Shown piece by piece: positions 22,825 to 28,711 of a stretch of DNA of 64,000 nt. The notes under the pieces are model-generated. The model was not told where the DNA came from, did no database searches, and saw nothing but the letters and a program-made list of their open reading frames with translations. The stretch spans positions 186,001-250,000 of the forward strand of contig NZ_CP033459.1 in assembly GCF_003265305.2 (NCBI RefSeq), given 5' to 3'. This DNA comes from Pseudoprevotella muciniphila. GTDB taxonomy: Bacteria; Bacteroidota; Bacteroidia; Bacteroidales; Bacteroidaceae. The position numbers were made by a program, and so were the translations under genes. The stretch's first letter is position 1; each line of letters begins with the position of its first letter.

Positions 22825-24228
22825 ATGTCGATAATTGATAAGGTATCTGTTTACGAACAAGCCGTAAAAAAAGGGAGTTCTATATACATGGATGCCAACG
22901 ATTTGTTGGATATCTACGACTATTATGTTGACCACCAAAGGGAACTTGATGCTGAAGCCTGCTTACATACTGCTTTGCGCATTCATCCAGACAATGAGGA
23001 TGTCCTTGTAACTTATGCTATATTTCTGCGAAGTCTGGGCAAACGTGAAGCGGCTTATAAAGTCGTAAAAGGCATAGAAAATCAACATGCTCCTGATGTG
23101 TTGATTTTTTATGGGGAGAATGAACTTAACAAAGCGAATATAGAAAAAGCAGAGAGATATTTTGACGCTATTCCGGAAGATGTACAACCTTATCAATGGC
23201 GGCTTCAGTATGATGTTGCACAAGTTTATTTTGACTACGGGTTTTATCAGAAAGCAAACATCTGGCTTGACAAATGCGATAATCCTCAAAATCCAGAATT
23301 CAGACAAGTGCTCGAACTCAGGGCTAAAATCTGTTATAATCTGGGGCAATACTCCAAGGCTGAACAGTTCATGAATAAATCCATCGACCTTAATCCTTAC
23401 GATGAAATGTCATGGATTTATCTGTCTGAAATACAACTGAAGTTAGAAAAATATGATAAGGTCATAGAAAGCACAGAATATGCATTAGTTATAAATGCAG
23501 ATGCTAAGCAGGCAATAAGGAATAAACTTTTGGCTTTGCTTAATCGGGACGATGCTTACGATTGTACTGACGCATTAAATTATTACCTTTCTCTTCAGGA
23601 AGGAATGGTTGTTGACATTAGTCTGCTTTGTATTTTGGTCGAAAAAATGATGAATTTTGCGCCGAGTGAAATTGTAGAGAAAATGATTATTTCGGCATTG
23701 GAAAATACCTCAGTTAATTCATTGGAACGCCATCGGTTGCTCAGTTACTATTGTTACATACTTATTGATAAAGGTGAATTATCTAATTCAAAGCAGGTTG
23801 TTCAAAGTCTTTGTATAAATGGTGAAAATTATCAAGCTGTGATGTATGATTATGTGTTACGCCTGCTGTCTAAAGGTTATGTTGACGAAGCCATGCTGTG
23901 TATGCAGGAGGTAATAGATAATGATACTTTTGATAACAGGTTTGCCGGATTATACGCAATGGAGTTCGTTAGGCGCAAATGTTTCGAGCCTGCGAAGTTT
24001 TTTTGGGAACGTGTCTTTTCAGAATATGAATGCATTAATGAAGATTATACTTATGCACTTGCAATGGCTGCTCACGAACTTAAATCTTCTAAACTTGCTG
24101 ATATAATCGAACATGTTAAAAAAGAAGATTTCCTGGCATTCCACTATTTTAGCAATATATACAATGTGTATACATGGGAAGAAGTTGTGAAAAAAGCAAA
24201 AAATGAAGCAGAAACGTGGAAAAAGTAA
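22825..24228 (+). CDS. Tetratricopeptide-repeat protein of unknown function
   Basis: 467 residues, no signal peptide and no membrane segment, so probably cytoplasmic. Several TPR-like helical hairpins are visible, the clearest at residues ~170-235 (YNLGQYSKAEQFMNKSIDLN, LKLEKYDKVIESTEYALVIN). It begins 10 bp after glnS and is therefore in the same transcript. Similar TPR genes follow glnS in Bacteroidales. No catalytic motif is seen. Confidence 0.8.
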   Translation: MSIIDKVSVYEQAVKKGSSIYMDANDLLDIYDYYVDHQRELDAEACLHTALRIHPDNEDVLVTYAIFLRSLGKREAAYKVVKGIENQHAPDVLIFYGENELNKANIEKAERYFDAIPEDVQPYQWRLQYDVAQVYFDYGFYQKANIWLDKCDNPQNPEFRQVLELRAKICYNLGQYSKAEQFMNKSIDLNPYDEMSWIYLSEIQLKLEKYDKVIESTEYALVINADAKQAIRNKLLALLNRDDAYDCTDALNYYLSLQEGMVVDISLLCILVEKMMNFAPSEIVEKMIISALENTSVNSLERHRLLSYYCYILIDKGELSNSKQVVQSLCINGENYQAVMYDYVLRLLSKGYVDEAMLCMQEVIDNDTFDNRFAGLYAMEFVRRKCFEPAKFFWERVFSEYECINEDYTYALAMAAHELKSSKLADIIEHVKKEDFLAFHYFSNIYNVYTWEEVVKKAKNEAETWKK

Positions 24229-24258: not shown

Positions 24259-24267
24259 TAATTTTGC
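24259..24267 (+). promoter_or_regulatory. Promoter -7 element for the his operon
   Basis: TAATTTTGC on the plus strand. The predicted start of transcription is near 24273, about 14 nt before the leader peptide ATG. Confidence 0.8.
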
Positions 24268-24286
24268 ATTCGAAATAATAAATAAT

Positions 24287-24334
24287 ATGTCAGTAGAACT
24301 CTATCATAGCCATTTGCATCTTGCCTCAGAATAA
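24287..24334 (+). CDS. hisL: His operon leader peptide
   Basis: The 15-residue frame MSVELYHSHLHLASE ends in TAA. Three of five residues at positions 7-11 are His (HSHLH), far above chance. It lies between the his promoter and an intrinsic terminator, directly upstream of hisG. This is the arrangement of a His-responsive attenuator leader: ribosomes stall at the CAT codons (24305, 24311, 24317) when charged tRNA-His is scarce. Symbol is given by analogy with enteric hisL; there is no sequence homology. Confidence 0.82.
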   Translation: MSVELYHSHLHLASE

Positions 24335-24404
24335 GGTGAGTCCTACTTTCTATGATGAGTTGGAAATAACGGCTTGCCTATTGTAAATAGGTGAGCCTTT
24401 TTTT
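24320..24404 (+). promoter_or_regulatory. His transcription attenuator with four alternating pairing segments
   Basis: Segment 1 CTTGCCT (24320-24326), segment 2 AGGTGAG (24334-24340), segment 3 CTTGCCT (24373-24379) and segment 4 AGGTGAG (24389-24395) can pair as 1:2, 2:3 or 3:4, each with two G-U pairs. 3:4 extends to a 12-bp terminator stem followed by seven T. Segment 1 starts right after the last His codon, so a ribosome stalled there masks it and frees segment 2 to pair with 3. A ribosome at the leader stop codon covers segments 1-2 and permits the terminator. Confidence 0.82.
24371..24404 (+). terminator. Attenuator terminator of the his leader
   Basis: The stem GGCTTGCCTATT (24371-24382) pairs with AATAGGTGAGCC (24386-24397) over a 3-nt loop, with two G-U pairs, then T7. 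It lies 30 bp before hisG. Confidence 0.88.
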
Positions 24405-24434
24405 AGTAGTAAAATATACCAAAAACTTACCAAT

Positions 24435-25286
24435 ATGTTAAGAATAGCAATACAGTCCAAAGGACGGCTCCACGATGATGCCATGAACTTGCTCTCCGAA
24501 GCGGACGTAAAAATACGTGAATCTAAACGTACTTTACTCGTGAAAGCAACGAATTTCCCTGTAGAAGTTCTGTTTCTTCGCGACGATGATATTCCTCAGA
24601 CCGTCGCTAACGGAGTGGCTGATATAGGCATAGTAGGACTTAATGAGGTAGAGGAAACCGGTTGTGCCGTGGATATCGTGCGTAGTCTAGGCTTTGGTGC
24701 TTGCCGACTTTCTCTTGCATTACCAAAAGATCTGAAATATGAAGGGCTGCAATGGTTCAACGGTAAGAAAATAGCAACTTCTTACCCAGCAGTCCTACGA
24801 AAATTCCTGAGCAAAAACAATATAGATGCAAAAATACACATCATTTCCGGAAGTGTGGAAATCTCTACAGGAGTAGGCATTGCTGATGCTATTTTCGATA
24901 TCGTAAGTTCTGGGTCAACATTGGTCAACAACAATCTCAAAGAGGTAGAAACTGTAATGCAAAGTGAAGCAGTGTTTGTGGCAACAAAAAACCTCGATAC
25001 AGAAAAAAAACAAATTCTCGATGAATTGCAGTTTCGTTTCGATGCCATAAAGAGTGCAGAAAACAAAAAGTATGTCCTTTTGAATGCACCTGACGACAAG
25101 ATCTCAGAAATTATCAGTCTTCTGCCGGGTGTGAAGAGTCCTACAGTAATGCCCCTCGCTGAAAAAGGGTGGAGCAGTGTACATACAGTGATTGATGAGG
25201 TGAAATTTTGGGAAATTATCGGTCAACTGAAAGCACATGGTGCACAAGGCATTCTGATTATAGATATTGAAAAATTGATTGTATAG
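24435..25286 (+). CDS. hisG: ATP phosphoribosyltransferase (long form)
   Basis: 283 residues, the long HisG form with a C-terminal ACT-like regulatory domain (GVKSPTVMPLAEKGWSSVHTVIDE...LKAHGAQGILIIDIEKLI). Catalytic domain motifs include LRIAIQSKGRLHDDA, DIGIVGLNEVEE and the phosphate loop GVGIADAIFDIVSSGSTL. It catalyses the first step of histidine synthesis, ATP plus PRPP, and the long form is normally feedback-inhibited by histidine. It is the first gene after the attenuator. Confidence 0.97.
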   Translation: MLRIAIQSKGRLHDDAMNLLSEADVKIRESKRTLLVKATNFPVEVLFLRDDDIPQTVANGVADIGIVGLNEVEETGCAVDIVRSLGFGACRLSLALPKDLKYEGLQWFNGKKIATSYPAVLRKFLSKNNIDAKIHIISGSVEISTGVGIADAIFDIVSSGSTLVNNNLKEVETVMQSEAVFVATKNLDTEKKQILDELQFRFDAIKSAENKKYVLLNAPDDKISEIISLLPGVKSPTVMPLAEKGWSSVHTVIDEVKFWEIIGQLKAHGAQGILIIDIEKLIV

Positions 25287-25297
25287 TTTTGCCTCTG

Positions 25298-26590
25298 ATG
25301 ATGAATGTAATATACAACCCAAATCGCTCACAATGGCAAGAACTTACACAAAGACCTGTCTTTGATGTAACAGAACTGTTCAGTGTGGTAAGCCCTATTT
25401 TTAAAGCAGTGTCTGAAAGAGGCGACGATGCTCTGAAAGAACTGGAGTTGCAGTTTGATAAAGTGTCGCTGCAGACATTGCGTGTTGGAGATGACGAGAT
25501 TAACGAAGCCGACTCTTTACTTGATACGAACTTGAAGGATGCCATCAATAAAGCATACGACAATATTTATGCCTTCCATGATGCGCAGAGGTTTGAACAA
25601 ATTGAAGTAGAAACAATGCCTGGCGTGAAATGTGTACAAAAGGCTGTTCCGGTAGAGAAAGTAGGCTTGTATATACCGGGTGGAACTGCGCCTCTTTTTT
25701 CTACTGTCCTCATGCTCGGCGTTCCCGCCAAAATAGCAGGCTGTAAACAAGTGATAGTTTGTACTCCGCCCTCTTGCGAAGGAAAGGTAAATCCTGCTAT
25801 ACTCTATGCTGCAAAATGTTGTGGAATAACGGAAATATTCAAAATAGGAGGAGCACAAGCCATCGCTGCAATGTCGGTAGGCACTGCTTCCGTTCCAAAA
25901 GTTGACAAAATCTTTGGACCTGGCAACCAATACGTCATGGCTGCCAAACAACTTGCTGCATTGTCTAACGTGGCTATTGATATGCCTGCAGGACCAAGCG
26001 AAGTAGAAGTACTTGTTGATGACACATGCGTGCCGGCTTTTGTGGCAGCTGACCTTTTAAGTCAGGCTGAACACGGACCGGATAGTCAGGTCGTGTTGGT
26101 CTCTACAACAGACAATGATGTTGTAAAACTAATAGAAGAAGAGTTAGAACACCAATTAAACGAACTTCCAAGAAAGGACTTCGCTGCAAAAGCACTTCGA
26201 AATAGCAGATGTGTGCTGTTTGACAATATGCAAGATGCCATCGATTTTACGAACGAATATGCGCCAGAACATCTTATTATAGCAGCAGAAGACTATAATG
26301 ATATTGCAAATCAAATAACACACGCAGGCAGTGTGTTCCTCGGAAATTACAGTTGTGAAAGCGCAGGAGACTATGCCTCGGGAACTAACCACACACTGCC
26401 AACAAAAGCATGGGCAAAAGCATATAGCGGATTATGCCTCGATAGTTTCATCAGGAAAATCACATTTCAGGAAATAACAGAAGAAGGTGTTAAAAATCTT
26501 GCCGGCATAGTGGAAACAATGGCAGAGGCAGAATGTCTCGACGCACACAAGAATGCAATGAAATTTCGCAGAAAAAGTCTGAATATATGA
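25298..26590 (+). CDS. hisD: Histidinol dehydrogenase
   Basis: About 430 residues from ATG 25298 ([16 protein letters not shown]), 11 bp after hisG; the frame reaches back only to a TTG. Motifs: [46 protein letters not shown] and the Zn-site region [25 protein letters not shown]. It oxidises histidinol to histidine in two NAD-dependent steps. The stop overlaps the hisC start (ATGA), which indicates translational coupling. Confidence 0.97.
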
Positions 26591-27624
26591 ATCTAAAAGA
26601 TCTTGTAAGACCAAACATTTATGCTCTTGCACCCTATAGTTCTGCAAGGGATGAGTATCAGGGACATGACGCAGCAGTTTTTCTTGATGCAAACGAAAGT
26701 CCATACAATAAACCTTACAATAGATACCCTGATCCTCTTCAACGCGAAGTAAAAGAGAAAATAAGTCAGGTAAAAGGTGTGCCTCCTGAAAACATATTTC
26801 TCGGGAATGGCAGTGATGAGGCCATAGACCTCATTTTCAGAGTGTTTTGTGAGCCTGGACTCGATAATGTTGTGGCTATAGAACCGTCGTATGGCATGTA
26901 TGCTGTATGTGCAGATATAAACAATGTGGAGTATCGTAGGGTAAAACTTCATAACGACTTTTCTTTTTCTGCTGAAGACATTATGCAAATCGCCAACAAG
27001 CGGACAAAGGTTGTTTTTCTGTGTAGTCCTAATAATCCTACAGGCAACCTCATGGATAGAAAGGAAATCCTGAAGTTGCTCGACCTCTTTCAAGGAATTG
27101 TAGTCGTGGACGAGGCATACGGAGATTTCGCAAATGGAAAGTCGTGGAGATTTGATGTTAACACATTCCCTCAGTTAGTTGTTTTGAATACATTCTCTAA
27201 AGCATGGTCGTCTGCAGCAGTAAGGCTTGGAATGGCGTTTGCCGACAAGGAGGTTATACATTATTTTAATAAGGTTAAATATCCGTACAATGTCAATCAA
27301 CTGACACAGGAATATGCACTCGATTTACTTAAACACAGTTATGATGTAGAGAAGTGGGTGAAATTGATTCTCGGCGAGAGGCCTAAAATGATTTCTGCAT
27401 TTGCAATGCTGCCTTATTGTGAGAAGGTCTATCCGACAGATGCAAACTTTTTCCTTGCAAAAGTAAGTAATGCACAGAAAATATATGACTATCTTATTAG
27501 GAAAGGAGTTGTTGTGCGAAATCGCTCAAAAGTAACACTTTGTGAAAATTGTCTGAGAATTACAATCGGTACACCGCAGGAAAATACTGCACTTCTAAGT
27601 GCGCTACGCCAGTTTGAAGAATAA
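26587..27624 (+). CDS. hisC: Histidinol-phosphate aminotransferase
   Basis: 345 residues from ATG 26587, which overlaps the hisD stop; the longer frame upstream lies wholly inside hisD. PLP-enzyme motifs: [52 protein letters not shown] and the lysine region [19 protein letters not shown]. It transfers an amino group from glutamate to imidazole-acetol phosphate. Confidence 0.97.
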
Positions 27625-27640
27625 ATTAAGAACAATACAA

Positions 27641-28711
27641 ATGCCAAAAAAACTGCTATTTATCGACCGCGACGGAACGCTCATCAAGGAGCCTGAAGAC
27701 GAACAGATAGACGCATTCGATAAACTCGAGTTCGTGCCTAATGTGTTCACGGCTTTGGGAACTATTGTAAGGTCATCGGACTATGAACTTGTCATGGTAA
27801 GCAATCAGGATGGACTCGGAACAGACGCTTTTCCTGAAGAAACATTCTGGCCGGTACAAAATTTTGTATTGAAAACATTAGAGCAAGAAGGAATTAGTTT
27901 TGCAACAGTTCATATAGACCCACATTTCCCGCAAGATAACCATCCAAACAGGAAGCCTGGAACAGGTATGCTTGAACCATACCTCAAAAACCCTGAATAC
28001 GATATTCCGAATTCATACGTAATAGGCGACAGGGATACTGATGTGAAACTGGCAGAAAATCTTGGATGCAAGGCGCTGAAACTGTCCGGCAAAATGGATT
28101 GGCTGAGAATAGCAGAAATCTTAATAGCAGGAGAACGTACTGCAGAGATTCATCGCGTTACGAAAGAAACGGATGTATATGTGAAAATAGAACTCGATAA
28201 TCCTCAGCAATGTAATATAGATACAGGACTCGGTTTCTTTAATCACATGCTCGAACAAATCTCACACCATGGGGCAATAGGGCTTACTGTCCAGACAAAG
28301 GGAGATCTTCATGTGGACGAACACCACACCATCGAAGATACAGCGCTTGCACTTGGAGAATGTCTGAAAAAAGCCGTTGGAAACAAACTTGGCATTCAAA
28401 GATACGGATTTTCGTTGCCAATGGATGAATGCCTCTGCCAAGTGGCTCTCGACTTTGGAGGACGACCTTGGCTTGTGTGGGAAACGGATTTCAAAAGAGA
28501 AAGAGTGGGAGATGTGCCAACAGAAATGTTTCTGCATTTCTTCAAAAGCCTTTCAGATGCAGCAGCAATAAACTTGAATATAAAAGCAGAAGGGCAGAAC
28601 GAACACCACAAGATAGAAGGCATTTTCAAAGCATTTAGCAGAGCACTTAGGATGGCATTAAAACGAGATACAGACTACCTAGTGCTCCCTTCTTCAAAGG
28701 GAATTCTTTGA
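27641..28711 (+). CDS. hisB: Bifunctional histidinol-phosphatase / imidazoleglycerol-phosphate dehydratase
   Basis: 356 residues from ATG 27641 ([18 protein letters not shown]). The N-terminal ~165 residues form a HAD phosphatase ([28 protein letters not shown]). The rest is the dehydratase domain with its paired metal motifs ([44 protein letters not shown]). The fusion is usual in Bacteroidetes and gammaproteobacteria. It completes hisGDCB; the remaining his genes are not in the window. Confidence 0.97.

Follow-up and report, generated by a model that had tools for sequence, protein, structure and literature searches.

The element at 24259–24404 of the 64,000-nucleotide stretch of Pseudoprevotella muciniphila DNA analysed here (hereafter, the window) is, with a probability that we put at roughly 0.9, a ribosome-mediated attenuator of transcription that responds to charged tRNA-His. 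Far from being isolated, it belongs, as a divergent copy, to a family of hisG leaders that is widespread in Bacteroidota. The family is of a kind that is already known, and the leaders tested have no match in Rfam.

Anatomy of the leader in front of hisGDCB

The element follows a same-strand TPR gene that ends at 24228 and precedes a his operon. The next four genes, all on the forward strand and all above the cut-offs of the family models, are hisG, which encodes the long form of ATP phosphoribosyltransferase (24435–25286; TIGR00070 and TIGR03455), hisD (25289–26590; TIGR00069), hisC (26533–27624; TIGR01141; the true start is probably later within the ORF) and a bifunctional hisB (27599–28711; NF003937), so that the position before hisGDCB, proposed in an initial annotation made from the letters alone, was recovered by family search. 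That annotation had also proposed a phylum-type promoter, and a box, TAATTTTG, is indeed present at 24259–24266 (forward strand, like all parts of the element); it fits TAnnTTTG, which we take to be the consensus of the Bacteroidetes-type promoter −7 box. No −33 TTTG element was found by eye upstream of the leader, and the −7 type box alone is clear. The expected leader of 15 codons, MSVELYHSHLHLASE, runs from an ATG at 24287 to a TAA stop at 24332–24334 (24287–24334) and is putatively translated; its three His codons, all CAT, lie at 24305, 24311 and 24317. A short ORF enriched in cognate codons is thus found directly before the cognate his operon.

Four segments were present in the order that had been claimed. 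Segment 1 (CTTGCCT, 24320–24326) is predicted to pair with segment 2 if the ribosome is absent. Segment 2, delimited by folding and covariation, occupies 24330–24343 around a core AGGTGAG (24334–24340), whilst segment 3, GGCTTGCCTATT (24371–24382, core CTTGCCT at 24373–24379), is both the antiterminator partner and the 5′ arm of the terminator. The 3′ arm is segment 4 (24386–24397, core AGGTGAG at 24389–24395), which forms 12 bp with segment 3 and is followed by a run of seven T (24398–24404), the 3:4 helix and the U-run together making an intrinsic terminator by both sequence reading and folding. The 2:3 helix reaches the 9 bp foreseen for it in the folded model (24334–24342 with 24371–24379). 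A further pairing noticed at the outset (24298–24309 with 24350–24360) was found as a computed outer stem that encloses 1:2, with its 5′ strand (24297–24309) spanning leader codons to just beyond the first His codon and its 3′ strand at 24350–24361. By folding and covariation (the latter modest for 2:3), the 1:2, 2:3 and 3:4 helices are mutually exclusive. This anatomy, like the conservation, covariation and folding preferences below, was observed or computed directly.

The start site, leader translation, stalling, premature ends and histidine response of the element we infer as follows. RNA polymerase would start at ~24272, the presumed start site, and make the leader. When charged tRNA-His is ample, the ribosome would reach the stop codon and cover segment 2, the 3:4 terminator would form and transcription would end near 24404, short of hisG. 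Under histidine shortage, the ribosome would stall on one of the three CAT codons and block the outer stem, a stall at the later CAT codons blocking segment 1 too; segment 2 could then pair with segment 3 once that is made, the terminator would be delayed or prevented, and hisGDCB would be transcribed. With no translation, the outer stem and 1:2 would hold segment 2 and the terminator would form, the outer stem plausibly lowering read-through when the leader is untranslated.

Conservation, covariation and distribution

We surveyed 131 hisG loci (25 from the genus of the window, 26 from the family and 80 on named contigs, with at least one duplicate pair, L031/L053), of which 46 passed a filter that asked for a His-rich leader with an ATG start within 400 nt; one of the leaders that passed, in L005, was rejected by hand as false. 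Up to seven consecutive His codons occur in hisG leaders of Bacteroides, Phocaeicola, Paraprevotella and more distant Bacteroidota, the survey including leaders from Bacteroides timonensis (MKNIVAHHHHHHYLTNNR), Phocaeicola coprophilus (MIFTATHHHHHHHYLTNER) and Paraprevotella xylaniphila (MKNIATRHHHHPNG). No locus titled Prevotella among the 131 passed the filter, and one titled Prevotellaceae (L116) did. Five contigs titled Akkermansia (L106, L120, L121, L127, L131) carry a hisG 63–65% identical to this Bacteroidaceae-type protein, and are probably mislabelled or mixed bins.

Within the genus, hisG is present in 25 of 58 genomes, and His leaders were found in five of these 25, namely the window, L006 (MTKTNQTFHHHHPNLKKGRLDA), L008 (MTLLHWHHHHHHTQLNER), L011 (MPLYNIIFHHTHDPFGYRVGKFAV) and L010 (MQTQNTHNRFHHHFLPKGGLRRV, 477–622 nt before hisG, found by the model R1 described below). 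No leader was found in the three closest sisters by HisG (L002, L003 and L004; 73–75%), in which a related TPR gene lies upstream as in the window, with 56–134 nt from its aligned end to hisG; since the element is common to the wider family, the leader was presumably lost in these three. As a separate observation, L006 matches the Bacteroidetes FopS sRNA family RF04319 at 2744–2812 on its minus strand (77.9 bits).

The covariance model R1 (Bacteroidota hisG leader), which was built from 32 relatives with the genus of the window left out, matches the window at 24278–24404 (34.2 bits, E = 2.1 × 10−5 in 64 kb), the next-best match in the 64 kb being at the same place on the opposite strand (16.9 bits). 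In its own genome, one contig of 2.92 Mb, the window gave the only reported match at E 0.01 (E = 9.9 × 10−4; 60 of 845 first-look candidates scored). Its 34.2 bits are nevertheless among the lowest scores of 76 leaders, which counts against the attenuator reading. R1 matches were obtained in 127 of 295 genomes of the order at E 0.01 and in 31 of 392 genomes of the phylum at E 10−4 (the window's own genome lying below that threshold), figures that are not counts of his leaders since the weaker matches include other leaders and plain terminators. For the top order-level matches, all 30 loci examined had hisG and a His-rich leader, as did 23 of 26 newly examined phylum-level loci (the exceptions were L209, L210 and L213). 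Within the genus, R1 also matched loci that have no hisG: in L138 the match is a Trp leader ahead of a trpB-like gene, in L136 a leader containing Phe/Trp codons, and in L134 and L139 what looks like a plain terminator.

In the 32 aligned relatives, segments 2 (CGGTRGGC), 3 (RGGCTTGCCG) and 4 (CGGTRAGCC) are near-invariant, and so is the segment 3 motif GGCTTGCC. Of 74 His leaders, 66 have a TAnnTTTG box 8–55 nt upstream of their ATG, where 0.012 per leader would be expected from its own upstream DNA, and the distance from box start to ATG is 28 nt in the window against a family median of 29 nt. Conservation upstream of hisG had been named as the check on the original claim, and His-rich leaders, segments and promoter box do recur in Bacteroidales and beyond. 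The leader peptides themselves are more variable: their His-codon runs range from 1 to 7, and residues other than His vary widely. Two features of the window here count against the attenuator reading, as only four of 78 leaders have three His codons, and the window is the only one of the 78 whose longest His run is 1, with no adjacent His codons.

Covariation was assessed in an alignment (A4) of 76 leaders fitted to R1, at a threshold set to exclude reverse-strand matches, with L011 and L116 falling below it. With the caveat that related sequences may exceed shuffles even without structure, 92.6% of cells were paired in 3:4 (90 double-change cells) and 89.6% in 1:2 (50 double-change cells), with 0 of 500 shuffles as high in either case, figures that lean on the model fit since both helices were used in aligning. 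The 2:3 helix, which is absent from the model, was paired in 93.5% of cells, with 14 double-change cells (0 of 500 shuffles), and in 21–47% when slid; the number of its doubly changed pairs is not exceptional, since 99 of 500 shuffles reached it, and sliding the helix by +1 to +3 still left 10–13 double-change cells. Among the 32 close relatives alone no 2:3 covariation was seen, and it appears, modestly, in the wider set of 76. The four-segment covariation that was to be looked for in relatives is therefore strong in 1:2 and 3:4 and only modest in 2:3. One position in segments 2, 3 and 4 reads C/G/C in 32 of the 76 rows and A/T/A in five (the window, L146, L152, L153 and L159), and this site is kept in step across rival helices, as a switch demands.

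Ribosome position and rival readings

The fold of 24259–24410 was matched by 1 of 200 dinucleotide shuffles (z = −2.45). For an RNA ending just past segment 3, the probability of 2:3 was 1.00 whichever of the three His codons the ribosome occupied and 0.00 when it stood at the stop codon; without a ribosome, 1:2 was at 0.96 and 2:3 at 0.02. The native ribosome-position score was reached by 0 of 1000 mononucleotide-shuffled spacers; this score comparison was used in place of a strict shuffle criterion (stalls at 0.9 or more), which the native sequence itself fails (0.89). Once segment 4 is present, the 3:4 terminator wins in all ribosome states (P = 1.0), which counts against the attenuator reading and means that antitermination must be kinetic. 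Over a set of 78 leaders, chosen for having a leader and excluding the rejected loci and L011 (the detector requires a T-run, which L011 fails), 54 were on at the stalls and off at the stop, and 38 of the 54 were also off without a ribosome.

These values come from a segment-specific measure that replaced a cruder one, in which segment 3 could be paired with anything upstream; both are reported. The cruder measure gave a weaker contrast for the window (0.87–0.93 at the stalls, 0.48 at the stop and 0.71 with no ribosome), classed 32 of the 78 leaders as switch-like with the window not among them, and let 2 of 500 shuffled spacers satisfy a criterion that the native sequence fails. In the E. coli hisL positive control, 2:3 was still at 0.76 when the ribosome had reached the stop codon and so was not released, and the ribosome-position calculation is thus not a validated predictor.

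Taken alone, the 2:3 duplex of the window is borderline, with 10 of 200 shuffles equally good; in 58 of the 78 leaders the 2:3 duplex was equalled by at most 10 of 200 shuffles, the window being exactly at 10. A segment swap was rejected as proof that 2:3 co-evolved in the window, as its segment 2 pairs no less well with 35 of 77 foreign segments 3, a negative outcome that follows from the near-invariance of the segments. For the outer stem of the window (−13.1 kcal/mol), none of 69 foreign spacers was as good, and it ranks among the strongest of 70; across the family the signal is partial, with a native mean of −8.2 against −6.5 kcal/mol when swapped, and 28 of 70 beating 95% of shuffles.

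The same observations bear on the possibility that the window holds a degenerate relic, that is, an ancestral attenuator whose copy here no longer responds usefully to histidine and instead terminates part of transcription at a roughly constant level. Its few, non-adjacent His codons, its low R1 score, and the patchiness of the leader in the genus (missing from the nearest sisters and found in only 5 of 25 hisG-bearing genomes) would all fit. The four segments, the promoter box and the T-run are nevertheless intact, the C/G/C to A/T/A change preserves the rival helices, no shuffle among 1000 reached the switch score, and the outer stem is among the strongest of 70; we therefore regard a relic as unlikely. 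That the terminator merely ends the upstream TPR gene, with a small ORF before it by chance, is suggested by its place in the gap after a same-strand gene ending at 24228, and yet a promoter box stands between that gene and the terminator and hisG is preceded by the complete unit in many genomes besides this one, which makes this explanation scarcely credible.

Two other ways of sensing histidine were weighed. Nascent-peptide arrest, of which TnaC is a comparable case, would have the His-rich peptide itself, and not tRNA supply, stall the ribosome in response to free histidine; the leaders are short and His-rich, as that would require, but their other residues vary widely, their His runs range from 1 to 7 and codon identity shifts with the pathway, and we hold arrest to be very improbable. 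Direct binding of histidine or tRNA-His by a metabolite riboswitch or T-box, with no need of leader translation, would equally place a structured 5′ region and a terminator ahead of a biosynthetic operon. Against it, no Rfam family reached its cut-off over the window element or the leaders of 12 related loci, no known T-box or histidine riboswitch family matched at the element, and the best sub-threshold match in the region (E up to 10) was an unrelated sRNA at 23.4 of 69 bits. What stays constant, moreover, is the presence of in-frame His codons, which give way to Trp codons where a similar locus precedes trp-like genes, to Phe/Tyr codons before phe-like and to Leu/Ile/Val codons before ilv/leu-like genes, so that direct binding seems to us extremely improbable next to ribosome-mediated attenuation.

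Known systems and leaders for other amino acids

Enteric his leaders are multi-hairpin structures. E. coli K-12 hisL (MTRVQFKHHHHHHHPD) shares with the window element a short His-rich leader, alternative helices and an intrinsic terminator directly before hisG, whereas the window has three separated His codons where hisL has seven in a row, four segments and an outer stem in place of the enteric arrangement, and a Bacteroidetes-type promoter box. The assertion that no sequence is shared with enteric his leaders agrees with the lack of any Rfam match at the element; RF00514, presumably the enteric His leader accession, had no match at gathering score in the window or the region.

The Bacteroid-trp motif is a leader-peptide attenuator, and Vitreschak et al. 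2004 reportedly mention attenuators in Bacteroidetes/Chlorobi in their abstract. Bacteroid-trp shares its phylum with the leaders described here, and Trp-run leaders before trpE- and trpB-like genes are among the weaker R1 matches; RF01692, its Rfam family, had no match in this genome or the window. The initial annotation called ribosome-mediated attenuation poorly described in the phylum, which goes a little too far, as it is not quite unreported: the relevant passage of one source lists RF01692 as a cis-regulatory RNA of Bacteroidetes, linked by its name to trp (PMC2864571), and a 2021 Flavobacterium psychrophilum transcriptome, in the passages concerned, describes structured 5′ elements before pheA and hisG that are found in other Flavobacteriaceae genera and have no Rfam matches, its authors seeing strong clues that amino-acid operons are attenuated by leader peptides (PMC9723704). 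Genes and phylum are those considered here and the class is different, and the passages concerned contain no sequence model, four-segment covariation or Bacteroidales survey (PMC9723704). His leader peptides were described in bacilli in 2010 before hisS paralogs and hisZ, where the authors, in the passage concerned, knew of no earlier leader-peptide system shown outside Proteobacteria and Actinobacteria; they resemble the window in being His-codon leaders outside Proteobacteria and differ in phylum and genes (PMC2965389). In the parts of further sources that bear on the topic, long 5′ UTRs of B. thetaiotaomicron hold small ORFs reminiscent of leader peptides (PMC7366714), an account of the his genes of the superphylum mentions attenuation in connection with Salmonella and E. 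coli (PMC8305728), and tandem attenuators with different signals are described (PMC3641672); other literature on the topic includes PMC4833913, PMC1262725 and PMC6429828. Our literature search, which covered few subscription papers, retrieved no recognised description of a Bacteroidales his leader.

Attenuation requires a ribosome that closely follows RNA polymerase, and the tightness of this coupling in Bacteroidota is little studied; the literature search found no paper that tests transcription–translation coupling in the phylum. To our knowledge, Bacteroidota mostly lack Shine-Dalgarno starts. As a conserved leader whose computed folding depends sharply on where the ribosome is, the element offers a direct means of testing coupling, and R1 would aid the annotation of hisG leaders. 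We are moderately inclined to think that ribosome-mediated attenuation is how Bacteroidota control their amino-acid operons by default (his, trp, phe, branched-chain and perhaps thr), that it uses one short, conserved segment pattern (GGCTTGCC or the like) and operates without Shine-Dalgarno starts, and that some lineages have two complete attenuators for one signal, placed in series. Transcription and translation would in that case be closely coupled at leaders in Bacteroidota, and the leaders would be ready-made reporters of coupling in living cells.

The weaker order-level R1 matches are mixed and comprise more hisG leaders, leaders for other amino acids and plain terminators. The codons of the leaders go with the genes, Trp with trpE- and trpB-like, Phe/Tyr with pheA-like and Leu/Ile/Val with ilvD- and leuA-like genes, these gene names being a reading of protein starts without family search. 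In the window's own genome, no clear leader was found upstream of ilvD, two aspartate kinases or a gene for a chorismate-binding protein that scored well under the trpE cut-off. Near 1117100 of that genome (L218), a leader rich in Phe/Tyr codons, MYASTFGFYFYFYFAKQAERDVVCIK, stands before pheA (PF00800, above cut-off) together with a promoter box and a terminator; its ATG lies 164 nt before the start of pheA homology, and its 2:3 pairing is at −18.4 kcal/mol.

Several further loci deserve mention. The his model matched Leu/Ile/Val, Trp or Phe/Tyr leaders in L174, L181, L183, L184, L185, L187 and L138, where the genes that follow are leuA-, ilvD-, trpE-, pheA- and trpB-like. At L210, a locus with no hisG, a minus-strand stretch that is Thr/Ile-rich by eye and is followed by a terminator is possibly a thr leader. 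Three loci from order-level genomes (L170, L172 and L164) have two units of His leader and terminator in series before one hisG and are possible same-signal tandem attenuators, and in L171 a trpE-like gene is preceded by two consecutive Trp leaders, MNTNRLNNYWWWQFTYSFYREEGKLS and MNNSNLHIWWWHNSGIKP, each having its own terminator.
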